This document shows, one piece after another, positions 7,953-64,000 of a stretch of 64,000 bases of DNA. Each line of letters starts with the position of its first letter. Within the stretch, counting starts at the first letter, position 1. Origin of the DNA: Oscillospiraceae bacterium. Its GTDB lineage: Bacteria; Bacillota; Clostridia; Oscillospirales; Ruminococcaceae. Location of the stretch: positions 62,001 through 126,000 of the forward strand of contig JAAYNJ010000017.1 of assembly GCA_012520915.1 (NCBI GenBank), written 5' to 3'. Position numbers and translations under genes: made by a program. The notes beneath the pieces are model-generated. The model saw only the letters and a program-made list of their open reading frames with translations. It ran no database searches and was not told the origin of the DNA.

Positions 7953-9186
7953 TAAATATGATGTTGTTGTAATCGGCGCCGGTCCTTCCGGTATGATGGC
8001 GGCGGTTTTTGCAAAGAGAAGAGGACTTTCGACCGCCGTTATCGATGACGATTTTCATATGAAAAAGCTGTTGCTGACAGGTAAAGGGAGGTGTAACCTT
8101 ACCAACAACTGCAATGTTCAAAAAATTATTCTAAACGCCGTGAGGGGAGGTAAATTTCTCTACAGCAGTCTGTCGGAATTCTCATCTGCCGAAATTATGG
8201 ACTTTTTTTCCGAGAGAGGGGTCGATCTGGTTACGGAAAGAGGGGACAGGGTATTTCCCGCCAGCGGGAAATCTTATGATATTGTAAAAACCCTGATCTA
8301 CGAAGCGGAAAAACTTGGTGTGACTTTTATCCGCGAACGAGCGAAATCTCTGATTTTTGATGGCGACAAAGTATCCGGAGTAGCGGTTGGGAACGGCGAC
8401 GTATATTCAAATGCGGTAATAGTTGCAACGGGAGGGCTTTCCTATCCGTCAACCGGCAGCCGCGGCGAAGGGTATGAGTTTGCCAGACAGGCAGGGCATC
8501 ATGTCGTTGATACCGCTCCGTCGCTTGTCGGTATTATCTGCCGGGGAGATTTTTATAAAAGACTTAGCGGGCTGTCTCTTAGAAATGTGGAGTTGTCGGT
8601 TAAAAAGGGGAAAAAGCAAATCTTTCTGCAAAGAGGAGAGATGCTGTTCACGGACTTCGGAATATCCGGACCTTTAGTGTTGACCGCCAGCGCATATGTG
8701 ACATATGAAGATTTTAAAGAGCTCGATTTTTCTGTTGACTTAAAACCCGCCTTAAGCCGGGATTTGTTGGATAAAAGGGTGCTTCGGGATTTTGCGAAAT
8801 ACTCGAACAGAGAACTTCAAAACGGATTGGGAGATTTGTTGCCGAAGAGTATGATTCCCGAGGTTATAGCGACGGCGGAAATCGACCCGAACCGAAGAAT
8901 CAATGAAATAACGGCTGAAAGCCGGAGAAAGCTTGTAGATACCCTGAAGTCGTTTCCGCTGACGGCGACGGGAACCCGTTCCATATCTGAAGCTGTTGTA
9001 ACTGCCGGAGGGGTTGACCTCAAGGAAATTTATCCGAAGACAATGATGTCCAAAAAAATGTCCGAGCTTTATTTTTGCGGCGAAGTTTTAAATACCGATG
9101 CCTTGACAGGAGGTTATAACCTGACAATCGCCTTTTCGACAGGTGCCGCTGCAGGCAGAAATGTATTAAAGGGAGAATTGAAATGA
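7942..9186 (+). CDS. HI0933/YhiN family NAD(P)/FAD-dependent oxidoreductase
   Basis: A 414-residue flavoprotein. The N-terminus VVVIGAGPSGMMAAVFAKRR is a dinucleotide-binding fold, followed by the family hallmark LTGKGRCNLTNNCN. A second conserved block is VVATGGLSYPSTGSRGEGYE, and the C-terminus FCGEVLNTDALTGGYNLTIA closes the FAD site. Members are known as conserved flavoproteins of uncertain reaction, sometimes annotated as aminoacetone oxidase-like. The gene begins inside the end of the RpiR gene and its stop overlaps the cmk start (ATGA), so it belongs to the same transcript as cmk-plsC-ispH. This order is common in clostridia. Confidence 0.93.
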   Translation: MNPDKYDVVVIGAGPSGMMAAVFAKRRGLSTAVIDDDFHMKKLLLTGKGRCNLTNNCNVQKIILNAVRGGKFLYSSLSEFSSAEIMDFFSERGVDLVTERGDRVFPASGKSYDIVKTLIYEAEKLGVTFIRERAKSLIFDGDKVSGVAVGNGDVYSNAVIVATGGLSYPSTGSRGEGYEFARQAGHHVVDTAPSLVGIICRGDFYKRLSGLSLRNVELSVKKGKKQIFLQRGEMLFTDFGISGPLVLTASAYVTYEDFKELDFSVDLKPALSRDLLDKRVLRDFAKYSNRELQNGLGDLLPKSMIPEVIATAEIDPNRRINEITAESRRKLVDTLKSFPLTATGTRSISEAVVTAGGVDLKEIYPKTMMSKKMSELYFCGEVLNTDALTGGYNLTIAFSTGAAAGRNVLKGELK

Positions 9187-9848
9187 AAGCAATCGCAATA
9201 GACGGTCCGTCAGGGGCGGGAAAGAGTACGATGGCAAGAAAACTGGCTGAAAAATTGGGTTTCATTTATGTCGATACCGGTGCACTCTACAGGGCGATAG
9301 GCCTTTTTGCCTTATCGGTCGGCGCCAATATTTACGAACCCGCTTCGGTCAGCGGGATTCTTGCGGGAATTGATATCTCCCTTAAATACAGCGACGGACA
9401 ACAACAGGTGGTTTTAAACGGAAAAGATGTTTCGGGTGAAATCAGAAGCGAGGCAGTCTCAATGGCTGCTTCGGCAGTTTCCGCAATACCCCGGGTTAGG
9501 GAGTTCCTGCTTGATACTCAGAGAAAACTTGCCAGAGAGAATAATGTGATTATGGACGGCAGAGATATAGGTACGGTCGTATTGCCCGACGCCGATTTGA
9601 AAATATTTTTAACGGCTTCCCCCGAGGAAAGAGCAAACAGAAGGTACAACCAGCTGATAAAGAAAGGGGTATCTGCAAACTACGATGCCGTATTAAAAGA
9701 CCTTGAAAAGAGAGATTATGACGATTCCAACAGAGAAATCTGTCCGCTGAAACCTGCAGAGGACAGCATCATTGTTGATACGACGGGGAATGAACTTGAA
9801 GAATCCGTAGAACTCCTTTTCAATATAGTGAAAGAGAACCTGAAATGA
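9183..9848 (+). CDS. cmk: (d)CMP kinase
   Basis: A 221-residue kinase of normal length. The P-loop IDGPSGAGKSTMARKLA sits at the N-terminus, then YVDTGALYRAIGLFA of the CMP-binding region, IMDGRDIGTVVLPDADLKIF and the lid LTASPEERANRRY. It phosphorylates CMP and dCMP in pyrimidine salvage and nucleotide recycling. It overlaps yhiN-like upstream and plsC downstream by 4 bases each, so translational coupling is likely. Confidence 0.97.
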   Translation: MKAIAIDGPSGAGKSTMARKLAEKLGFIYVDTGALYRAIGLFALSVGANIYEPASVSGILAGIDISLKYSDGQQQVVLNGKDVSGEIRSEAVSMAASAVSAIPRVREFLLDTQRKLARENNVIMDGRDIGTVVLPDADLKIFLTASPEERANRRYNQLIKKGVSANYDAVLKDLEKRDYDDSNREICPLKPAEDSIIVDTTGNELEESVELLFNIVKENLK

Positions 9849-55385: not shown

Positions 55386-57128
55386 TCAGTAGATTTCCCT
55401 CTCAACATAGGTTGTGTGAAGAATTTCATGTGCCTTATGGCTACCGGGCTTTCCGAAGTATGTGTCGTAAAGCTCGTTCATAACGGGGTTGTCAATGCTC
55501 TTTCTAAGCTGCATTCCCGCATCCTGATTGTAAAGGCCCATGGCTCTTGTATGGCGCAGGTTGAGGTTGTTTGTGACAAAGCTGGGCTGAATTGGCTGCC
55601 CGCCGCCGTTGACACAGCCTCCGGGACATGCCATGACTTCAATGAAGTGATATTCCTTCTCTCCGTTTTTAATCATGGTGAGAAGCTGATGGGCGTTTTC
55701 AAGACCGGAGGTAACAGCAACCTTGACTTTTATTCCCGCAAGGTCGTATTCGGCTTCTTTTATGCCTTTTGTACCTCTGACTTCCGAAAAGTCGATTTTT
55801 GGAGCATCGTCGCCCGTGAGTATCTCTGATACCGTTCTGAGCGCGGCTTCCATTACTCCGCCGGTTGCTCCGAAGATATGAGCCGCACCGGAAGCCATGC
55901 CGAATACCGGATCGAAATCTTCGTCGGGGAGTTTGTCAAATATTATATTTGCTCTCTTTATCATGTTTGCGAGTTCGCGGGTCGTGAGAACGGCATCGAT
56001 GTCGGGATATCCCGAGGCGCTTTGACCGGCTCTCGTCTTTTCAAATTTCTTTGCCGTACAGGGCATGATGCTGACCACGAAGATATCTTTCGGATCGATT
56101 CCCTGTTTTTCGGCGAAGTATGTCTTTGAAACCGAACCCATCATCTGCTGGGGTGATTTACAGCTCGAGAGGTTGGGGATAAATTCCGGGAAATAATATT
56201 CGCAGAACTTTATCCATCCCGGCGAACAGGAGGTGATGAGAGGGAGAACCCCGCCGTTGTTTATGCGATCCAATAACTCCGTGCCCTCTTCCATAATGGT
56301 GAGATCGGCAGCGGTATCGACGTCAAAAATACTGTCAAATCCCATCCTGCGGAGAGCGGCAGGTAATTTTCCGTGCACATTTGTGCCTATGGGCATTCCG
56401 AAACACTCTCCGAGCTGGACCCTGACGGAAGGTGCGGGTGCCGCAATGACATGCTTGGTGGGGTCGGCCAATGCAGCCCAGACCTGTTCACTCTCGTCCT
56501 TTTCGGTGAGTGCACCCACCGGGCAGACAACTATACACTGACCGCAGTGTATACATGAAGTCGCATCCAGAGGATCGCCGAAAGCGGAACCTATGTGAGT
56601 GTCATAGCCTCTTTTAGTAGGTCCTATAACCGCTACATGCTGATTGACGCTGCAGGCTGCAACGCATCTTCTGCAGAGTATGCACTTTGAATTGTCTCTA
56701 ATGAGGTGTACGGCCGAGTCGTCAATATCCGGCTCCAGGTTGGAACGACCGAATCTGTCCATATCTACGTTGTTTTCATGACACAGCGTCTGAAGTTCGC
56801 AGTTCGTGTTTCTTGCACACGAGAGACAGTCGGTTCTGTGATTGCTCAGTATGAGCTCGAGGGTTTTCTGTCTTGACTTTCTCAATGCGGGGGTGTTGGT
56901 ATTGACAACCATTCCCTCGGATACGGTGGTGACGCAGGCTGCCAGATAGGAGCGCGCACCTTCAACCTCTACCAGACACAGACGACATGCACCTATGGCA
57001 TTCAGGTCTTTCATATAGCAGAGGGTGGGAATTTTGATTCCGGCTTTATATGCGGCGTCGAGTATGGTGTAACCCTCGGGAACTTCAACATTTACGCCGT
57101 CTATCTTTAAATTCACGGTTTTGCTCAT
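55386..57128 (-). CDS. hydA: [FeFe]-hydrogenase catalytic subunit HydA (bifurcating type)
   Basis: ATG at 57128 gives 580 residues; the longer frame to 57224 lies within hydB. Domains: [2Fe-2S] with C37, C48, C51, C65; the His-ligated cluster (H97, C101, C104, C110); two [4Fe-4S] (C149-C159, C192-C202); then the H-cluster domain with ITSCSPGWIKF (C301), MPCTAKKFE (C357) and MACPGGCVNGGGQP (C501, C505), and the small-subunit-like C-terminus YDTYFGKPGSHKAHEILH. The L1 motif has Ser in place of the second Cys of TSCCP. With HydB and HydC it should couple NADH plus reduced ferredoxin to hydrogen formation. Confidence 0.95.
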   Translation of the reverse strand: MSKTVNLKIDGVNVEVPEGYTILDAAYKAGIKIPTLCYMKDLNAIGACRLCLVEVEGARSYLAACVTTVSEGMVVNTNTPALRKSRQKTLELILSNHRTDCLSCARNTNCELQTLCHENNVDMDRFGRSNLEPDIDDSAVHLIRDNSKCILCRRCVAACSVNQHVAVIGPTKRGYDTHIGSAFGDPLDATSCIHCGQCIVVCPVGALTEKDESEQVWAALADPTKHVIAAPAPSVRVQLGECFGMPIGTNVHGKLPAALRRMGFDSIFDVDTAADLTIMEEGTELLDRINNGGVLPLITSCSPGWIKFCEYYFPEFIPNLSSCKSPQQMMGSVSKTYFAEKQGIDPKDIFVVSIMPCTAKKFEKTRAGQSASGYPDIDAVLTTRELANMIKRANIIFDKLPDEDFDPVFGMASGAAHIFGATGGVMEAALRTVSEILTGDDAPKIDFSEVRGTKGIKEAEYDLAGIKVKVAVTSGLENAHQLLTMIKNGEKEYHFIEVMACPGGCVNGGGQPIQPSFVTNNLNLRHTRAMGLYNQDAGMQLRKSIDNPVMNELYDTYFGKPGSHKAHEILHTTYVEREIY

Positions 57129-57144
57129 ATTTTTACAATCCTTT

Positions 57145-58935
57145 CTATTTCCTGACAATCGCGCCGAACTTGCATGCTTCCACACAGGCGCCGCACTTGA
57201 TACAAGCATCCTTGTTGATGACAAACGGCTCTTTGCCCAACACGCCGGTTATGGCATCGGCAGGGCATACTTTTGTACAGAGTCCGCATTTTTTGCATTT
57301 GTCGGCAATTATCGAATAGGACAACAGACCTTTGCAGACTCCCGCAGGACATACCTTGTCAACAACATGAGCAATATATTCTTCTCTGAAGAATTTAAGG
57401 GTTGACATAACGGGGTTGGGAGCAGTCATGCCAAGCTGACAGAGGGAGTTCTTGCTGATGTATTCACAGAGTTCATCAAGAATATCAAGATCTTCGGGTT
57501 CACCTTTTCCCTCGGTTATTTTATCAAGGACTTCGTACAGCCTTTTGGTGCCGATTCTGCAGGCGGTGCATTTTCCGCAGGATTCTTCGACGGTAAAACC
57601 GAGGAAAAATTTGGCTATATCGACCATACAGTTATCTTCGTCCATGACAATCAGCCCGCCGGAACCCATCATGGATCCTGCTTCAGCCAGGCTCTCGTAG
57701 TCTATCTTTACATCGAAGAGATCAATAGGAATACATCCGCCGGAAGGGCCGCCTGTTTGAGCTGCTTTGAATTTCTTGCCTCCGGGTACGCCCCCGCCGA
57801 TTTCATCGACAACCTCTCTGAGTGTGGTGCCCATGGGTACTTCAACCAATCCGGTATTGTGGATTTTTCCCCCAAGGGCAAATACCTTTGTACCCTTGCT
57901 CTTTTCCGTGCCTATCGATCTGAACCAATCAGCTCCGTTGAGAATGATTTGCGGTACGTTGGCCAAGGTTTCTACGTTGTTAATTGTTGTCGGTTTTCCG
58001 AAAAGACCTCTTTCGGCAGGGAAGGGAGGCCTCGGTCTCGGCTCTCCGCGCCCGCCTTCGATGGACGCCATGAGAGCGGTTTCTTCGCCGCAGACAAATG
58101 CGCCTGCACCGAGCTTTATAGTAATGTCAAAGGAAAAATCGGATCCGAAAATATTATCTCCCAAAAGTCCGTATGCCTTTGCCTGTTCTATGGCGATATT
58201 GAGACGCTTTATGGCTATGGGGTATTCCGCACGGACATAGATGAATCCTTTGCTTGCATCTGTGGCATATCCGGCTATTGCCATGGCTTCGATTATTACA
58301 TGAGGATCGCCTTCGAGAACGGAGCGGTCCATAAATGCGCCGGGATCGCCTTCGTCGGCATTGCAGATTACATATTTCTGATCGGCATCATATCCGCGTG
58401 CAAATTTCCATTTGAGACCGGTCGGGAAACCCGCACCGCCTCTTCCGCGAAGCCCGCTGTCGGTTATGAGCTGCACCGTCTCTTCGGGCGTCATCTCGGT
58501 CAGAACCTTGCCCAAAGCCTGGTAACCGTCAAAAGCTATATACTCGTCTATGAGCTCCGGATTTATTCTGCCGCAGTTTCTGAGTGCAAGCCTCATCTGC
58601 TTTTTATAGAAAGGGGTTTCGTGAAGACCGGCTATTTCATCTTCCTTCACCGTCTCGTCATAGAGCAGCCTGGTTACCGGACGACCCTTTAAGAGATGCT
58701 CGCTCACTATTTCGGGAACGTCGTCCACCTTTACCATGCTGTAGAAGGTGCCTTCGGGATGGATAATGACTATGGGGCCGAGGGCGCAGAGGCCGAAACA
58801 GCCCGTTTTAACTATATTAACCTCGTCGGAAAGCCCCTGATTTGCAATTGCTTCGGCAAAAGCTTCCGCCACCTTTGCGCTGCCGGAGGACGCACAACCT
58901 GTACCGGCACATATCATGACATGACTTCTGTACAT
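57145..58935 (-). CDS. hydB: NADH/ferredoxin-linked hydrogenase subunit HydB (NuoF-like)
   Basis: A 596-residue flavoprotein. Residues 1-90 are a thioredoxin-like [2Fe-2S] domain (C9, C14, C46, C50). The NuoF core has RGRGGAGFPTGLKWKFA (FMN), CNADEGDPGAFMDRS and GAGAFVCGEETALMASIEG (NADH), then ESCGKCTACRIGTKRL for a [4Fe-4S]. The C-terminus adds two ferredoxin clusters, CKKCGLCTKVCP and CIKCGACVEACKFG. This architecture is that of the bifurcating HydB of Thermotoga and clostridia. It sits 16 bases upstream of hydA. Confidence 0.96.
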   Translation of the reverse strand: MYRSHVMICAGTGCASSGSAKVAEAFAEAIANQGLSDEVNIVKTGCFGLCALGPIVIIHPEGTFYSMVKVDDVPEIVSEHLLKGRPVTRLLYDETVKEDEIAGLHETPFYKKQMRLALRNCGRINPELIDEYIAFDGYQALGKVLTEMTPEETVQLITDSGLRGRGGAGFPTGLKWKFARGYDADQKYVICNADEGDPGAFMDRSVLEGDPHVIIEAMAIAGYATDASKGFIYVRAEYPIAIKRLNIAIEQAKAYGLLGDNIFGSDFSFDITIKLGAGAFVCGEETALMASIEGGRGEPRPRPPFPAERGLFGKPTTINNVETLANVPQIILNGADWFRSIGTEKSKGTKVFALGGKIHNTGLVEVPMGTTLREVVDEIGGGVPGGKKFKAAQTGGPSGGCIPIDLFDVKIDYESLAEAGSMMGSGGLIVMDEDNCMVDIAKFFLGFTVEESCGKCTACRIGTKRLYEVLDKITEGKGEPEDLDILDELCEYISKNSLCQLGMTAPNPVMSTLKFFREEYIAHVVDKVCPAGVCKGLLSYSIIADKCKKCGLCTKVCPADAITGVLGKEPFVINKDACIKCGACVEACKFGAIVRK

Positions 58936-58946
58936 TTATTATCCCC

Positions 58947-59318
58947 CTATCTCGCAACGCGGCCGTATGTGAATTCAGCAACCGGTTTTCCGCCGATTAC
59001 ATGTTCGCTGATAATTCTGCCGACCTTATCGGTGGTAACGTTTACATATGTGACTTTCTCATGACCCGGCACGAGAACTTCGACGACCGGCTCATACTGG
59101 CATATGCCGATGCAACCGGTTTGCGTTACAATGACGTTGTGGAGTTCGCGACGTGCGATTTCCGCAGTAATTTCGCTCAACACCGGTCTTGCTCCGGCTG
59201 CTATCCCGCATGTAGCCATGCCGACGACTATTCTGATGGTGTCTTCATCCGATTCGCGGGTGTCAATCAGATTTTTCATCTTGTCGCGTATAGCAGTAAT
59301 GTCCGCCAAACTCTTCAT
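58947..59318 (-). CDS. [2Fe-2S] thioredoxin-like ferredoxin of the hyd operon
   Basis: A 123-residue protein. Four cysteines fit a thioredoxin-fold [2Fe-2S] site: MATCGIAAGA (one Cys), then TQTGCIGICQYEPVVEVLVP, with a single Cys in the first knuckle as seen. It resembles the small subunit often found between HydC and HydB in clostridia. The spacing C...(CxxxC) gives three clear Cys rather than four, so the cluster may be unusual or absent; I count C in ATCG, GCIG and GICQ. It is 11 bases ahead of hydB. Confidence 0.85.
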   Translation of the reverse strand: MKSLADITAIRDKMKNLIDTRESDEDTIRIVVGMATCGIAAGARPVLSEITAEIARRELHNVIVTQTGCIGICQYEPVVEVLVPGHEKVTYVNVTTDKVGRIISEHVIGGKPVAEFTYGRVAR

Positions 59319-59339
59319 AGATTTCTCCTTAAAATGTCT

Positions 59340-59882
59340 TTATTTAGATTCTGTAATCTGTAAAAAATTATCGTTTGCGTATTCTTCAATAAACAATGCC
59401 ACCTGGGGCGTGGATACCGGAACCCCGTCCAAAAGTATCTTTATTTCCGCAGAATCAAGGATGAATTCAAGCTCTCCTCTTGAGATGTGAAAAACGAAAT
59501 CCACATCGGGACTTCCGGAAATCAGTGTTGAGGCGGTAGAACCGAGATTGCCGATGGGCAGCATGTCGATGCTGTTTGCATCAAATAATGCGGTTATTTT
59601 AGTACCTGCTCCGACCTCGCTCTCTATTTCCACATACCCTCCGGTCTGCTCCGCCAAAAGTGTCAGAAAGGGTATTCCGAGTCCCACCTTTCTGGTGGTT
59701 CTGGAGGTGTAAAAAGGATCCTTGAGTTTATTCAAAACCTCTTTTGTCATTCCCGAGCCGTCGTCGCTTATAATAAGCTTCAGATGATTTTCATCATATA
59801 TAAGCGAAATATTTACGAGTTTCGCTCCGGCCTTTACGGAGTTGTTGGCCACGTCGAGGATGTTTAAAGATAGTTCCTGCAA
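59340..59882 (-). CDS. Histidine-kinase-type ATPase protein embedded in the hyd operon
   Basis: TTG at 59882 behind GCGAGGCGG is the only start after the in-frame stop upstream. The 180-residue protein begins directly with the N-box (LNILDVANNSVKAGAKLVNI), then SDDGSGMTKEVLNKLKDPFY, TRKVGLGIPFLTLLAEQTGG and GAGTKITALF, so the HATPase domain is complete. There is no dimerisation/His-phosphorylation domain and no sensor. A further 75 residues follow with no motif I know. It sits between hydC and the [2Fe-2S] gene. It may be an anti-sigma-like or partner kinase for the divergent signalling genes. Confidence 0.87.
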   Translation of the reverse strand: MQELSLNILDVANNSVKAGAKLVNISLIYDENHLKLIISDDGSGMTKEVLNKLKDPFYTSRTTRKVGLGIPFLTLLAEQTGGYVEIESEVGAGTKITALFDANSIDMLPIGNLGSTASTLISGSPDVDFVFHISRGELEFILDSAEIKILLDGVPVSTPQVALFIEEYANDNFLQITESK

Positions 59883-59909
59883 AACCGCCTCGCTTTCACA
59901 CCTTTAAAG

Positions 59910-60398
59910 TCAATACTTTGCCAATATTCCTTCCAGTTCGTCGCCCGTCAGCCTTCCGTAAACATCTTCGTTTATCATAATTACGGGTGCAAGACCGCAT
60001 GCGCCGATACATCTGCAGCTCTCGAGACTGAATTTTCCGTCGGGAGTCGTTTCGCCCTCTTTAATTTTCAGCAATACTTCAAGTTTATCCAATATGTTCT
60101 GACTGTTTTTTACGTAACATGCCGTTCCCATACAGACGCTTATTTTATAGTCGCCTACGGGGTATAGTCTGAACATCGAATAAAATGTGGCTATACCGTA
60201 AAGTTCTTCAAGCGAGACGCCGGTATGTTCGGAAATAATGGTTTGAGCTGCTCGGGGCAGGTAGCCGAATATTTCCTGAGCTTTTTGAAGGGCGGGCATG
60301 GTAAGACCCTGCATATCCTTGTTTTCGATGAGCCACTCTTTTAATTCGTTTTCCTGTTCCGGTGTGCCGGTGTAAGGAACTACGACGGTGTTTTTCAT
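59910..60398 (-). CDS. hydC: Hydrogenase subunit HydC (NuoE-like [2Fe-2S])
   Basis: A 162-residue NuoE/HydC with TTGGAGG before the ATG. MPALQKAQEIFGYLPRAAQT, YGIATFYSMFRLYPVG, and the cluster ligands in CMGTACYVKN (C-x4-C) and SCRCIGACGLAPVIMINEDV (C-x3-C) are as expected. It carries electrons with HydB between NADH and the H-cluster subunit. It is the first gene of the operon; a minus-strand TATAAT lies at 60462-60467. Confidence 0.95.
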   Translation of the reverse strand: MKNTVVVPYTGTPEQENELKEWLIENKDMQGLTMPALQKAQEIFGYLPRAAQTIISEHTGVSLEELYGIATFYSMFRLYPVGDYKISVCMGTACYVKNSQNILDKLEVLLKIKEGETTPDGKFSLESCRCIGACGLAPVIMINEDVYGRLTGDELEGILAKY

Positions 60399-60585
60399 TC
60401 CGTTTCCTCCAAAGATTTAATTTTAAACAACACAAAAATGCGTTAAATAGATAACAAATAAATTATATCATAGAGGTGTTTAAAAAGGTAGGAGAAAAAA
60501 CAGGGATTTTATTGTAATATCTTCTAAAAGACAAAATGCATTTTTCGAGAAAAAGCACGAACTTCGGGGTGTTGAAGGTCTTTGC

Positions 60586-60615
60586 TTGTCACTTCCCGAA
60601 GAGATATCGTATAAT
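60586..60615 (+). promoter_or_regulatory. Sigma-A promoter of the DRTGG/HydS-like operon
   Basis: TTGTCA (60586-60591), an 18-base spacer and TATAAT (60610-60615) in the 310-base gap between the divergent hydC and DRTGG genes. A minus-strand TATAAT at 60462-60467 could serve hydC. Nothing else coding is seen in the gap. Confidence 0.72.
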
Positions 60616-60632
60616 GTGTTTGGATAAGTCTG

Positions 60633-60659
60633 AATTATCCGTTGTATGAACGGATAATT
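60633..60659 (+). promoter_or_regulatory. Inverted repeat in the leader of the HydS-like operon (operator or attenuator)
   Basis: Perfect 11-base arms AATTATCCGTT (60633-60643) and AACGGATAATT (60649-60659) around GTATG, starting about 11 bases after the predicted transcription start. It is followed by GTTTTAA, a poor T-run. It could be a repressor site or a weak terminator; it does not fit the Rex consensus as I know it. Confidence 0.7.
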
Positions 60660-60708
60660 GTTTTAACGGATTGATTTTTGTCGACTATAAGAACAAAAAG
60701 GAGACTCT

Positions 60709-61065
60709 ATGAAGATATCTGAAATTGCAAAAATACTCAGTGCCAGAATAATGACGTCCGGGATAAGCACCGATACGGAAGTCCATACGGCCTGCGGCAG
60801 CGATATGATGAGCGATGTGCTCGCCTATGTTAAGAATCAGGCGGTTCTATTGACGGGACTTAACAATCCTCAGGTCATAAGAACCGCCGAGATGATGGAC
60901 ATGGAGTGTGTGGTGTTCGTCAGGGGTAAGGTTCCCAACGAAGACCTTGTAAAAATGGCACAGGATAAGGGCATTGTTTTGATGACGACCGAAAAAACTA
61001 TGTTTCTGGCATGCGGAGTCCTTTATGAAAAGGGTCTCATGGAAGGGGAAGGAGCTTGGGAATGA
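60709..61065 (+). CDS. DRTGG-domain protein (first of two)
   Basis: A 118-residue single-domain protein behind AAAAAGGAGACT. The N-terminal MKISEIAKILSARIMTSGIS and central VHTACGSDMMSDVLAYVKNQ, then LLTGLNNPQVIRTAEMMDME, match the DRTGG domain known from phosphotransacetylase and CBS proteins. DRTGG is thought to bind a ligand, but what it binds is not known. It ends 10 bases past the start of the next gene. In clostridia it recurs with hydrogenase genes. Confidence 0.85.
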   Translation: MKISEIAKILSARIMTSGISTDTEVHTACGSDMMSDVLAYVKNQAVLLTGLNNPQVIRTAEMMDMECVVFVRGKVPNEDLVKMAQDKGIVLMTTEKTMFLACGVLYEKGLMEGEGAWE

Positions 61066-61481
61066 ATCCCATCTTAATTAGGCATGATGTTTCGGGTGAA
61101 GACTTTTCGCTTGCCGGCGAGGCGTCCGTCGATATAAAGAACCAGCTCAGAAAAATGGGAATTCCCGCAGATGCCGTAAGAAAAGCCGCCATATCCATCT
61201 ACGAGGCGGAGATTAATCTCGTGATACATGCAACCGGAGGAACGGTGGAAGCGGAAGTGGAGAACAATGAAATCAGAATAAGGATAACCGATAACGGACC
61301 GGGAATCCCCGACGTAAATCTCGCGGTGTCCGAAGGGTTTTCCACAGCAACTGATGAAATCAGAAATTTGGGGTTCGGAGCAGGCATGGGGATTCCGAAT
61401 ATGATTAGATATACGGATGAGTTCGACATCAAGTCAACACCCGGCGAAGGGACCGAAATCAATATGACGGTGAGATTTTAG
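61056..61481 (+). CDS. RsbW-like anti-sigma factor/serine kinase-type ATPase
   Basis: A 141-residue HATPase_c_2 protein. The N-box is YEAEINLVIHATGGTVEAEV, the G1 box ITDNGPGIPDVNLAVSEGFS and the G2 box GFGAGMGIPNMIRYTDEFDI. This is the fold of RsbW/SpoIIAB, which phosphorylate partner proteins on Ser. No sigma or anti-anti-sigma factor is adjacent; its partner may be one of the DRTGG proteins or HydS-like. It starts within the end of the first DRTGG gene. Confidence 0.9.
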   Translation: MGMNPILIRHDVSGEDFSLAGEASVDIKNQLRKMGIPADAVRKAAISIYEAEINLVIHATGGTVEAEVENNEIRIRITDNGPGIPDVNLAVSEGFSTATDEIRNLGFGAGMGIPNMIRYTDEFDIKSTPGEGTEINMTVRF

Positions 61482-61509
61482 CTAACAGAATCCTCTGGAG
61501 GAGACGCAA

Positions 61510-62844
61510 TTGAGTGACAATGATAACGGCGGAAAAATTTTTTTGCATTCCGTCACGCTGGATTTGGATAAATGCAAAGGATGCATAAACTGTATAAAAC
61601 GATGCCCCACCGAAGCTATAAGAGTCCGCGACGGAAAAGCATCCATAATATCAGAACTCTGCATTGACTGCGGTCAGTGTATCAGGGTTTGTCAAAACAA
61701 GGCCAAAAAGGCAAATTACGATGACTTGTCGGTTTTGGATAACTTTGAATACACCGTTGCGCTTCCCCCTCCCAGCCTATATGCTCAATTTAATAATATA
61801 GACGACCAGAAAATCGTGCTGGATGCGCTGAAAGCCGTAGGATTCGACGATGTCTTTGAGGTTGCTGCCGCGGCTGAAATCATTACTGCAGCTACCGAGA
61901 GATATCTAACAAGAAACAAAGGCAGACTCAAGTATCCGGTTATTTCCACAGCCTGTCCCGTGGTGACAAGGCTTATAAGTGTCAGATATCCCGACCTTTT
62001 GGACAATCTGCTGCCTTTGATTACGCCCGTCGAACTGGCGGGAAAGATGGCGAAAAAAAGGGCGTCTGAAAAGACGGGGCTGTCTCCCGATAAAATCGGA
62101 TGCATTTTTCTTACGCCATGTCCGGCAAAAGTCTCCGCAATTCATTCCCCGATAGGAACGGAGCATAAATACGTCGATGCCGCTATTGCGATAAATGAAG
62201 TGTATCCGCTTCTGCTCAAGGAAATGAAAAAATTGGGGGCGGAATTGCCGGATCAACAACCCCTTGCAGGCGCCGTCGGTCTCGGATGGGGTATTATCGG
62301 GGGAGAGAGCACATCGCTTAAATCAACCGACAAACACCTTGCCGCAGACGGCATAGACAATGTAATAATGGTCCTCGAGGATCTCGAAAACCACAGATAC
62401 GGTCTCGAGTTTGTAGAGCTGAATGCCTGTTCCGGGGGTTGTGTGGGGGGAGTTCTCCAGGTGGAAAACCCCTACATTGCGAGGGCGAAAGTCAATAAGA
62501 TGAAGTCCAATATAAAGGTAAACGATGAGCCTTTGGATGACGACTATGTAAAATTGATGTGGGATAAGGAACTTGACTACAACCCCGCAATGGAATTGGG
62601 AGACACAATGGAGGAGAGTTTTGAGAGATTCACCAGATTGCAGAGTCTCATTGAGAGCCTTCCCGGTCTCGATTGCGGAAGTTGCGGTGCACCTACATGT
62701 GCCGCATTTGCGGAGGATGTTGTAAAAGGGAATGCGGAAGTAATGGACTGTGTAGTTCTGTTGAGAAGAAAAACGGAGGAAATTTACAAGAGAATGGAGT
62801 CTTCTTTTGACAGCGTGGGATTTTCCAACAGAACTGAAGACTGA
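61510..62844 (+). CDS. Hydrogenase-like iron-sulfur protein, putative sensory [FeFe]-hydrogenase (HydS-like)
   Basis: TTG at 61510 behind CTGGAGGAG gives 444 residues. Two ferredoxin clusters come first (C22-C32 and C51-C61). The H-cluster domain is altered: L1 is ISTACPVVTRL (C149, the relay Cys position is Ala), L2 LTPCPAKVSA (C204; Met replaced by Thr, final Glu by Ala), L3 ELNACSGGCVGG (C307, C311). All four ligand Cys for [4Fe-4S] plus the bridge remain. A C-terminal Fe-S domain has C389, C392, C397 and C414. Known sensory HydS proteins also lack the relay Cys. The PAS domain of group C is absent. It likely senses hydrogen or redox state. Confidence 0.88.
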   Translation: MSDNDNGGKIFLHSVTLDLDKCKGCINCIKRCPTEAIRVRDGKASIISELCIDCGQCIRVCQNKAKKANYDDLSVLDNFEYTVALPPPSLYAQFNNIDDQKIVLDALKAVGFDDVFEVAAAAEIITAATERYLTRNKGRLKYPVISTACPVVTRLISVRYPDLLDNLLPLITPVELAGKMAKKRASEKTGLSPDKIGCIFLTPCPAKVSAIHSPIGTEHKYVDAAIAINEVYPLLLKEMKKLGAELPDQQPLAGAVGLGWGIIGGESTSLKSTDKHLAADGIDNVIMVLEDLENHRYGLEFVELNACSGGCVGGVLQVENPYIARAKVNKMKSNIKVNDEPLDDDYVKLMWDKELDYNPAMELGDTMEESFERFTRLQSLIESLPGLDCGSCGAPTCAAFAEDVVKGNAEVMDCVVLLRRKTEEIYKRMESSFDSVGFSNRTED

Positions 62845-62882
62845 AGATAAATATATGCAAAAGTTTTTAAACGGGAGATTAA

Positions 62883-63215
62883 ATGAATACATCAGATTTG
62901 TATGAGCTCGGATTCAGTGAAATATCGCACTCCCGGGACAGGGAGATAACGGGCGGATTTTGCGGAGACCTTCTCAGCTGGGTAATGGGACGGGCAAAAG
63001 AGGGAGACCTCTGGTTCACCATCATGGGCAATATTAATACGATAGCCGTGGCAAGCTTGACGGACGTTAGTGCGGTCGTATTCTGTGAGGGAGTGACGGC
63101 GGCAGAAGATGTCATAAATAAGGCGGGGGAAGAGGGGATTAATCTTTTTTCCACCGAGCTTCCCGTGTTTGAAGCCGCGACTAAATTCCACGATTTTTGC
63201 AAAGACGAAAGGTGA
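62883..63215 (+). CDS. DRTGG-domain protein (second of two)
   Basis: A 110-residue DRTGG protein, little like the first except in the fold. SRDREITGGFCGDLLSWVMG contains the name-giving motif as DREITGG, and VASLTDVSAVVFCEGVTAAE follows. It lies between HydS-like and the PHP gene, with 38 and 15 bases of spacing. Together the two suggest a small ligand-binding pair. Confidence 0.85.
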   Translation: MNTSDLYELGFSEISHSRDREITGGFCGDLLSWVMGRAKEGDLWFTIMGNINTIAVASLTDVSAVVFCEGVTAAEDVINKAGEEGINLFSTELPVFEAATKFHDFCKDER

Positions 63216-63230
63216 AGTTCGGGTGAGGAA

Positions 63231-63932
63231 ATGAAACTGAAGTACGATCTTCATATTCATTCCGCGCTTTCACCCTGTGCGGATAACGACATGACCCCCT
63301 CGAGCATTGCGGGATTCAGGCTGCTTTCGGGAGCCGATGTGATTTCCCTATGCGATCACAACAGCGCATTGAACACGCCGTTTGTAAAAAAGGCGTGTGA
63401 CGAGTATAAAATAAGGTTTATTCCGGGCATTGAGGTAAATACGGCAGAGGAAATACATGTCCTCTGCTATTTTTCCGATGTGGATGCAGCTTTGGAGATG
63501 GGAGAAATAATCTACAGATCCCTCCCAAACATTAAAATTGACAGTGAAATATGGGGAGAACAGCTGGTTGTCAATGAAAGCGATGAGGTTGTCGGAAGGG
63601 TGGAAAAACTCCTCACTGTCGCCTCTTCTCTCGATATCTATGCGGTAAAATCGGAGTGTGAGAGACTGGGCGGGATTGCCGTTCCCGCCCATGTGGACAG
63701 GGACAGTTATTCGGTGCTGTCGGTGTTGGGGTTTATGCCGGATGATCTCGGGTTTCACGCTGTAGAGATGGTTAATCCCGAGAAATACCGAAGCTTTGCA
63801 GACAAAAAGATGCTCCCCGAAAATGTCGAGGTTTTGAATTCTTCCGATGCCCATAATCTCGCCGCACTTATAAATGAAGATCTCCCTTACCTTGATGACG
63901 ACAGTGCCTTGATGAGACTGCTTGGTTTATAG
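63231..63932 (+). CDS. PHP-domain phosphoesterase
   Basis: A 233-residue PHP protein. YDLHIHSALSPCADNDMTPS has the HxH metal motif, DVISLCDHNSALNTPF the next His, FIPGIEVNTAEEIHVLCYFS a Glu and His, and VPAHVDRDSYSVLS and NSSDAHNLAAL the last ligands. All metal ligands look present, so it should be an active phosphoesterase. PHP enzymes act on histidinol phosphate, nucleotides or oligonucleotides. At the end of the HydS-like operon it could end a signal by removing a phosphate or by cleaving a signalling nucleotide. That is inference. Confidence 0.9.
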   Translation: MKLKYDLHIHSALSPCADNDMTPSSIAGFRLLSGADVISLCDHNSALNTPFVKKACDEYKIRFIPGIEVNTAEEIHVLCYFSDVDAALEMGEIIYRSLPNIKIDSEIWGEQLVVNESDEVVGRVEKLLTVASSLDIYAVKSECERLGGIAVPAHVDRDSYSVLSVLGFMPDDLGFHAVEMVNPEKYRSFADKKMLPENVEVLNSSDAHNLAALINEDLPYLDDDSALMRLLGL

Positions 63933-63957
63933 ATTAAAGGTAAATTTTAATATGGTA

Positions 63958-63995
63958 AAACAGCCTGTCGGTTGATTACGGCAAGGCTGTTTTTA
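63958..63995 (+). terminator. Terminator after the HydS-like operon
   Basis: AAACAGCC ... GGCTGTTT arms with TTTTTA after them, 26 bases past the PHP stop. Confidence 0.85.
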
Positions 63996-64000
63996 CATGT

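Follow-up and report, generated by a model that had tools for sequence, protein, structure and literature searches.

A conserved gene cassette around a putative sensory [FeFe] hydrogenase, an RsbW-like ATPase and DRTGG proteins

According to a survey of 2012 (PMC3561251), the usual place of sensory [FeFe] hydrogenases, including those of the M2e type, is upstream of a trimeric bifurcating hydrogenase, often with a histidine or serine kinase in between; it lists Cthe_0335, a group D gene of Clostridium thermocellum, close to such a bifurcating enzyme. HydDB links the sensory groups C1-C3 to histidine kinases, chemotaxis and phosphatases (PMC5037454). The proximity of group D (M2e) enzymes to kinases and bifurcating hydrogenases was already known; these enzymes have so far been studied as purified enzymes, and their sensory role is published opinion rather than proof. 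In TamHydS of Thermoanaerobacter mathranii, H2 reduces one N-terminal 4Fe-4S cluster and not the C-terminal cluster (PMC13104023), and turnover is low but measurable (PMC10407848). Here we analysed a stretch of 64,000 nucleotides (the window) from an Oscillospiraceae bacterium (GCA_012520915.1, contig JAAYNJ010000017.1, positions 62,001 to 126,000), in which HydS, a putative enzyme of this group, is encoded in a cassette of five genes opposite a hydrogenase operon. The arrangement of the cassette and the regulatory role guessed for it agree with the 2012 survey, whereas DRTGG proteins, a PHP phosphoesterase, fusions, CBS variants and modules without HydS are not mentioned in the available text of that survey.

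The reading that we prefer is a module of six proteins in which HydS would feed a hydrogen or redox signal to an ATP-dependent switch made of an RsbW-like ATPase and DRTGG proteins, a PHP phosphoesterase would reset this switch, and HydABC or Rnf would be tuned by it. We put its probability at about one half. An original prediction, made from the letters of the window, had proposed a relay of the five genes opposite the hydrogenase; their co-occurrence speaks for such a relay, but the prediction overlooked a further member, the HydE-like ATPase of the hydrogenase operon.

Gene order, co-occurrence and fusions of the cassette

All five predicted genes are present at 60709-63932, tightly packed on the plus strand. 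They encode DRTGG protein 1 (DRTGG-1, 118 amino acids, 60709-61065), an RsbW/SpoIIAB-like GHKL ATPase and candidate serine kinase (139 amino acids, 61062-61481) whose ATG overlaps the stop codon of DRTGG-1, HydS (444 amino acids, 61510-62844) with a TTG start preceded by GGAGGA, DRTGG protein 2 (DRTGG-2, 110 amino acids, 62883-63215) and the PHP phosphoesterase (233 amino acids, 63231-63932). The operon hydC, HydE-like ATPase, hydD-like 2Fe-2S protein, hydB and hydA, assigned by gene order and by HydA, runs divergently on the minus strand at 55386-60398. Its HydA is an NADH-dependent group A [FeFe] hydrogenase (NF040763, 865.7 bits against a cut-off of 765).

Conservation was followed in 161 loci, namely the window, 80 neighbourhoods from phylum or family genomes and 80 from named records (the best 80 of 576, mostly near relatives and nearly all Clostridia), all picked by a HydS match and searched with profiles of ten proteins. 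The order DRTGG-RsbW-HydS-DRTGG-PHP on one strand was found in 138 of the 161 loci, or in 136 of 159 when two duplicate loci are left out: in 64 of the 80 phylum-wide or family loci, in 73 of the best 80 named loci and in the window. The named fermenters Coprococcus catus (L136) and [Clostridium] asparagiforme (L157) carry the full cassette. With start codons set mechanically, the median intergenic gaps are -4, 25, -4 and -4 nucleotides. The 23 deviating loci comprise fusions (DRTGG-RsbW in L057, L060, L066, L070, L096 and L117, HydS-DRTGG in L095, RsbW-HydS in L121), five contig ends (L151, L183, L197, L199, L206), a contig start where PHP is missing and rnfC follows (L116), three split modules (L093, L099, L109), one locus with DRTGG-2 and PHP on the opposite strand (L181) and five with a part missing (L064, L068, L082, L102, L194). 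The genome of L082 carries a DRTGG-2-like gene on a different contig.

Since the loci had been selected by HydS, co-occurrence was measured separately in 298 other genomes of the phylum, at E <= 1e-45 for HydS, 1e-14 for the RsbW-like ATPase, 1e-14 for PHP and 1e-150 for HydA (NF040763). The RsbW-like and HydE-like profiles, built by iterated search, cross-match, as do those of HydS and HydA, and proteins were assigned by the best score. HydS was matched in 119 of these genomes (120 of the 299 sampled, own genome included), the RsbW-like ATPase in 125 and PHP in 115. HydS and the RsbW-like ATPase were found together in 118 genomes, HydS alone in 1 and the ATPase alone in 7; for HydS and PHP the corresponding numbers were 111, 8 and 4. 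The Fisher tests used a total of 299 where 298 is exact, a negligible difference. The NADH-dependent HydA was present in 115 of the 125 genomes with the RsbW-like gene. The original prediction had staked its relay on the genes occurring together, and by gene order and by genome content they do.

A scan for two module domains in one reading frame, covering frames of at least 150 residues in L052-L231 and the window, gave six DRTGG-RsbW fusions (three families), two HydS-DRTGG fusions (L095 and L225, one family), two PHP-HydE fusions (L113 and L115, one family) and one RsbW-HydS fusion (L121). In none of these frames was a module domain fused to a HydABC subunit. When fusion examples were checked with Pfam, that of L117 showed no DRTGG domain, while it reached 92.6 bits with our own DRTGG profile. 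In the L121 protein the RsbW part extends to residue 144 and HydS starts at 150, so that the ATPase abuts the N-terminal 4Fe-4S domain; this locus is also without DRTGG-1 and PHP. In L095 the DRTGG part comes after the C-terminal FeS domain of HydS. Such natural fusions are independent evidence of association, and they suggest that the proteins work together physically.

The module can also be split, or carried without HydS. L093, L099 and L109 hold the RsbW-like ATPase and HydS, with DRTGG-DRTGG-PHP-HydE apart in the same genomes (L222, L224 and L221). Three of the 7 genomes with an RsbW-like gene and no HydS match (G189, G216 and G249) carry a CBS-RsbW protein at four loci, arranged as DRTGG-[CBS-RsbW]-DRTGG-PHP-HydE in L215, L216 and L218 and as DRTGG-[CBS-RsbW], then a 2Fe-2S protein and rnfC, in L217. 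Other loci without HydS read DRTGG-RsbW-DRTGG-HydE (L212 and L213, two genomes of one genus) or DRTGG-RsbW only (L214), and L219 is a contig of 4 kb. CBS-RsbW occurs together with HydS in L056 and L119. In a genome of the same family as the window (G005), only the RsbW-like ATPase and DRTGG-2 of the five are found, at L260:5965-6728, beside hydC, HydE-like, hydD-like, hydB and hydA genes. HydS is not the sole input because CBS-RsbW loci and other loci without HydS exist; it is the commonest input, others being possible, and what persists as the core is the RsbW-like ATPase together with DRTGG.

The proteins and their known relatives

The window HydS resembles TamHydS (PMC8163306, PMC10407848, PMC13104023) in its two N-terminal 4Fe-4S sites, its H domain, its C-terminal Cx2Cx4Cx16C motif, the lack of a PAS domain and the place of its gene near a bifurcating hydrogenase and an ATPase, as far as the available text of these papers allows the comparison. 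This is the layout of group D (M2e), for which the Cx2Cx4Cx16C motif has been described (PMC6984386). Pfam recognises the large-subunit domain (Fe_hyd_lg_C, 118.3 bits), N-terminal 4Fe-4S motifs and a C-terminal FeS domain (PF04060, 52.4 bits). The motif cysteines C389, C392, C397 and C414 are kept in 156 of 156 aligned relatives, among which the eight N-terminal 4Fe-4S cysteines and the H-cluster cysteines C149, C204, C307 and C311 are also invariant. A length filter had removed 5 of 161 HydS sequences, and likewise 7 of 148 for DRTGG-1, 3 of 159 for the RsbW-like ATPase, 3 of 151 for DRTGG-2 and 7 of 147 for PHP. As predicted, the relay cysteine is gone: the position of C299 in CpI is occupied by A148 in the motif ISTACP, and by alanine in 84% of the relatives. 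The same replacement is seen in TamHydS, and in group D the cysteine is mostly replaced by alanine (PMC10407848).

Two glutamates of the alternative proton path, E266 (98% kept) and E303 (100%), correspond by number offset to E252 and E289 of TamHydS. By the same counting from the numbers printed in PMC10407848 and PMC13104023, which is not an alignment to TamHydS, D265, R30, R32, K35, K58, D378, E392, D393 and D403 of that protein fall on D280, R38, R40, K43, K66, D388, E402, D403 and D413, and the eleven group D residues so mapped are kept at 81-100% among the relatives. The window protein differs from the reported residues in having T202 in place of serine at the position of M353 of CpI and N305 in place of leucine at that of M497. 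In a tree of 35 rows, with group labels assigned in this analysis and TamHydS not among the rows, 23 HydS rows formed one group (support 99/99) that excluded the 7 rows of group A and the 5 group C-like rows, with a warning of long branches. The window HydS is accordingly filed, on its sequence features, as a group D (M2e)-type putative sensory [FeFe] hydrogenase, which sharpens what had been predicted of it.

In the family of the window, 57 of 100 genomes gave a HydS match at E <= 1e-30 and 49, own genome included, at E <= 1e-110; most of the weaker matches are longer, group C-like proteins, and yet one genome with a match of 1.2e-55 (G043) holds a full module (L089). The fusion scan also gave two group C-like HydS proteins with a kinase-type ATPase domain. 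At L095:10969-13272, L225:10643-12979 and L117:9753-11978, the group D module is closely accompanied by another HydS on the same strand, which is group C-like; in L095 and L225 this second protein carries the kinase-type ATPase domain. A paralogous HydS-DRTGG pair precedes a hydrogenase operon at L229:2317-7999, L230:6357-12197 and L231:1845-7669. No RsbW-like, PHP or HydE match was found in these three stretches; L102, in the genome of L230, is a fuller module.

The ATPase next to HydS had been predicted to be of the RsbW type, and by the searches it is RsbW/SpoIIAB-like. Similar to SpoIIAB and RsbW, it consists of a lone GHKL domain of similar size (HATPase_c, 44.5 bits; HATPase_c_2, 39.1 bits), and its place as the ATP-using centre of a small switch is proposed by the same likeness. 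Its profile matches SpoIIAB (1til, E 1.2e-10) and RsbW (6m36, E 4e-5), and the N box E-x3-N-x3-H is retained, with the Glu, Asn and His, which we take to have the catalytic role, at the SpoIIAB spacing in 156 of 156 relatives. It differs from both in a longer G2 lid (GFGAGMG) and in scores far below the family cut-offs, with 54.6 bits for SpoIIAB (TIGR01925, cut-off 135) and 22.4 for RsbW (cut-off 145), neither of which is reached; SpoIIAB is nonetheless its nearest curated family by Pfam and NCBIfam. A further difference is that no STAS partner or sigma factor was seen among the proteins scanned with Pfam, with DRTGG proteins and HydS standing in their place.

The two predicted DRTGG proteins were recognised by different means. 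DRTGG-1 matches PF07085 with 31.7 bits (cut-off 25.2), and its AlphaFold model, with a mean predicted local distance difference test score (pLDDT) of 90, superposes on the DRTGG structure 2ioj with Z 15.9 and a root mean square deviation (rmsd) of 2.0 over 111 residues. DRTGG-2 remains under the Pfam cut-off with 16.7 bits and is homologous to DRTGG-1 by profile comparison (probability 99.4, E 8.5e-22). Within the own genome, the DRTGG-1 gene is the sole match of the Pfam DRTGG model at E <= 0.001. D32, S35 and G50 of DRTGG-1 are invariant in 141 aligned relatives, as are D29, S32 and N52 of DRTGG-2 in 148, so that a D-x-x-S motif is present in every aligned sequence of both families. In the DRTGG-1 model the invariant serine lies at a helix start. 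The CBS-DRTGG part of family II pyrophosphatase is a further relative, with a DRTGG fold that works together with CBS domains, as described in the available text of PMC10742508; there it forms one chain with the catalytic part, while the proteins of the cassette are free-standing and carry the invariant D-x-x-S.

The PHP phosphoesterase was predicted to be intact, and its site residues agree with this. H8, H10, D42, H43, E68, H76, H154, D206 and H208, presumably the metal ligands of the family, are kept at 99-100% in 140 relatives. The protein itself scores 21.0 bits with PF02811, under the cut-off of 26.4, and the relative in L113 scores 39.1; its profile matches EndoQ (5zb8, E 1.2e-10), TM0559 (2anu) and 2yb1.

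We propose the HydE-like ATPase (180 amino acids, 59340-59882, minus strand; HATPase_c, 54.5 bits) as the sixth member of the module because it adjoins DRTGG or PHP, lies in the hyd operon and is fused to PHP in L113 and L115. In 109 of the 127 loci with such an ATPase, and likewise in the window, its gene is flanked by those of HydC and the 2Fe-2S protein. It adjoins DRTGG or PHP in the loci L212, L213, L215, L216 and L218, which have no HydS, and in the split loci L221-L224, and at several loci it stands beside PHP or DRTGG with no hydABC between them. By operon position and domain alone it can be likened to HydE of Acetobacterium woodii (Awo_c27000, in the operon hydA1-hydE with hydC first), a GHKL protein that adjoins hydC and has an ATP-binding domain like that of histidine kinases (PMC3315566); a partnership with PHP or DRTGG is not mentioned in the available text of that paper. 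The AlphaFold model of the window protein (mean pLDDT 90) has the GHKL fold. Foldseek placed histidine kinase 853 at the top (E 1.7e-6) and VIA placed MutL there (1bkn, Z 13.8, rmsd 3.7 over 144 residues), and this comparison of models does not decide between a kinase and a MutL-like ATPase.

Upstream region and neighbouring genes

The cassette had been predicted to have its own promoter. A promoter-like site, TTGTCA-18-TATAAT, does lie at 60586-60615 on the plus strand (11 of 12 bases, consensus scan only), but it is a weak sign, as the region holds 9 such sites against 5.2 expected (standard deviation 2.2). Between this site and DRTGG-1 stands the inverted repeat AATTATCCGTT-GTATG-AACGGATAATT (60633-60659, plus strand), a candidate operator whose 11-bp arms match perfectly and which is the single such site in the genome with up to 3 mismatches allowed. 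Because it was absent from the best inverted repeats upstream of DRTGG-1 in 24 other loci, 7 of which had different repeats, we propose no conserved operator for the cassette. A Rex-like site pattern was rejected (5 matches against 5.3 expected by chance), and an Rfam search of 59000-64000 gave no match.

A hydB or hydA-like gene lies within the fetched stretch in 118 of the 161 loci. A Rex gene is directly upstream on the same strand in 7 loci (L054, L056, L057, L060, L066, L070 and L096), where it precedes DRTGG-1 or the DRTGG-RsbW fusion, and is found 3-6 kb downstream in 4 more; the Rex-family gene of L057 is at 8995-9627, and the cluster representative (L131) was confirmed by Pfam. Close upstream of RsbW and HydS, 4 of the 161 loci have a response regulator (L093:8502-9203, L099:8249-8950, L109:8919-9620 and L098:9083-9808), of the OmpR type by Pfam in L093 and L109, and L093 also has a large kinase-like protein, which suggests a coupling to two-component signalling at these four loci. 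In 10 loci, including L106:5127-5675, the gene of a small SPOR-domain protein (representative checked) precedes DRTGG-1 on the same strand at a distance of 0-375 nucleotides. The remaining neighbour clusters, each in at most 16 of the 161 loci, are mainly those of an ABC transporter, a Mur-ligase/FolC-like protein, valyl-tRNA synthetase, a 2-hydroxyacid dehydrogenase and an aminotransferase. This clustering, with Pfam on representatives, does not support a dedicated, conserved transcription factor as output. In agreement with the original prediction, Pfam finds no sigma factor, response regulator or PAS domain among the five genes, and no STAS or sigma-factor domain was found among the module proteins and the part of the neighbours that was scanned with Pfam.

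A proposed switch and its alternatives

In the proposed module, HydS, a group D-type protein without the usual proton relay, would usually serve as the sensor of hydrogen or redox state; it would adjoin the RsbW/SpoIIAB-like ATPase and alter the ATP-dependent state of the latter. The signal may pass via the N-terminal side, where H2 reduces a cluster in TamHydS (PMC13104023) and which the RsbW part abuts in the natural fusion. The ATPase would act on the DRTGG proteins, which would stand where STAS proteins do in RsbW/SpoIIAB systems, by phosphorylation, with D-x-x-S as the candidate site, or by ATP-gated binding. PHP would reverse the resulting state, with the HydE-like ATPase as its probable working partner. 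For the end of the chain we infer that the output is most likely the tuning of the neighbouring ferredoxin/NADH machine, HydABC here and at most linked loci and Rnf in a few. An output on HydABC or Rnf themselves is suggested because the conserved core has no transcription factor, and is favoured because of the tight link to HydABC, the position of HydE inside the hyd operon and the Rnf cases. The intact N box, D-x-x-S motif and PHP site fit such a switch, and do not by themselves prove phosphorylation.

Several observations weigh against this reading. Each type of fusion is known from few genomes, and neither HydS nor PHP is obligatory, since one or the other is missing at some loci (L212, L213, L214 and L260; L064 and L068). 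The module is an optional companion of the hydrogenase, because HydA is also present in 96 genomes without the RsbW-like gene. The invariant serine of the DRTGG proteins may be a helix cap or otherwise structural, because DRTGG domains outside the module, in three long CBS-pyrophosphatase-like proteins, carry Ser or Asn (without the Asp, as judged by eye) near the same helix start; it is kept as a candidate phospho-acceptor. The DRTGG-1 model is also less sure around it, with a mean pLDDT of 78 for residues 31-40. The solved relatives found for PHP are mostly nucleases or nucleotide enzymes by name, and we know of no PHP enzyme that acts as a serine-protein phosphatase. Finally, rnfC (RnfC_N and Complex1_51K) is the next gene on the same strand at L112:3925-5229, L116:2511-3833, L119:2686-4014 and L217:7897-9225, L112, L116 and L217 also having an RnfB-like gene farther along, and in L212 and L214 an RnfC N-terminus lies about 6 kb away, at the edge of the fetched stretch. 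HydABC and Rnf both use ferredoxin and NAD(H). These neighbours count against a purely hydrogenase-bound role, and the target is not HydABC everywhere. The original picture of a HydS-like sensor beside a hydrogenase thus holds for the usual case, but HydS can be replaced by CBS-RsbW and the neighbour is rnfC at four loci.

A rather unlikely explanation, and still one to be taken seriously, is a machine for assembly or repair, in which the GHKL ATPases, the DRTGG pair and PHP would build or reactivate HydABC (or Rnf), and HydS would report the need or serve as a scaffold. HydE of A. woodii, which has the same place in the hyd operon, is not in the active enzyme and has been considered for assembly or signalling, according to the available text of PMC3315566. 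The model of the HydE-like protein fits the MutL/GyrB-type GHKL proteins as well as histidine kinases, and at L260 this ATPase stays with the hydrogenase where HydS, DRTGG-1 and PHP are not found. However, the 96 genomes with a hydrogenase and no RsbW-like gene argue against such a machine, as do the modules at L100, L114 and L118 that have no hydABC in the fetched stretch, and the exchange of HydS for CBS is better explained by a change of input signal than by a change of chaperone.

Nucleotide signalling is likewise improbable without being negligible. Here the DRTGG and CBS domains would bind an adenine nucleotide, PHP would make or destroy it, the RsbW-like ATPase would read ATP and HydS would add the state of hydrogen or redox, so that energy charge and H2 would be read jointly. 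It would account for the CBS domains fused to the RsbW-like protein and for the several PHP relatives in the PDB that are nucleases or nucleotide enzymes, and DRTGG-1 also matches the CBS-DRTGG part of a pyrophosphatase (3l2b, Z 13.8, rmsd 3.9 over 112 residues). The CBS domains of that type of pyrophosphatase bind AMP, ADP, ATP and diadenosine polyphosphates, but according to the available text of PMC10742508 these nucleotides bind CBS and not DRTGG. Moreover, CBS-RsbW proteins occur at 6 loci only, and no nucleotide-making enzyme was seen in the module.

We consider a classical partner switch very unlikely, in which the RsbW-like protein would act on an unlinked sigma factor or STAS protein, as its anti-sigma factor or kinase, and H2 would control hyd transcription. 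The profile similarity of the RsbW-like protein to SpoIIAB and RsbW is in keeping with that role, and an AraC-type regulator flanks TamHydS in the available text of PMC8163306; against it stand the SpoIIAB score of 54.6 against a cut-off of 135 bits, the lack of STAS and sigma domains among the Pfam-scanned proteins and the finding that no unassigned neighbour family reaches more than 16 of the 161 loci. That HydS is a slow catalytic hydrogenase feeding HydABC or ferredoxin, with unrelated passengers as neighbours, can hardly be credited, since the retained H-cluster ligands and the measurable, though low, turnover of TamHydS (PMC10407848) are outweighed by gene order, co-occurrence, the fusions and the loss of the relay cysteine.

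The cassette might be a new kind of soluble bacterial switch, with a SpoIIAB-type GHKL ATPase and, in place of STAS proteins, DRTGG proteins at its centre, a reset by PHP and a second GHKL protein, pluggable sensors (a hydrogen-sensing [FeFe] hydrogenase or CBS domains) and a post-translational tuning of ferredoxin/NADH machines, namely the bifurcating hydrogenase and in some lineages Rnf; we put this forward tentatively. The cassette is real and widespread, and it sharpens a suspicion that was already known. New to us are the module as a unit, its sixth member, the chain of fusions, the split loci, the exchange of HydS for CBS and the cases linked to rnf. No description of the six-gene module was found in the parts of the open-licence literature that were searched, and the only text found there that joins DRTGG and a hydrogenase concerned an unrelated gene.

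A study of TamHydS from 2026 concludes, in its available text, that identifying what the protein interacts with is critical if the mechanism of signalling is to be clarified (PMC13104023). Candidate partners of HydS can now be named because of gene order, co-occurrence and fusions: the RsbW-like ATPase on the N-terminal side and, on the C-terminal side, DRTGG-2, followed by PHP and HydE. The cassette is carried by fermenters such as Coprococcus catus and [Clostridium] asparagiforme, in which hydrogen turnover matters.

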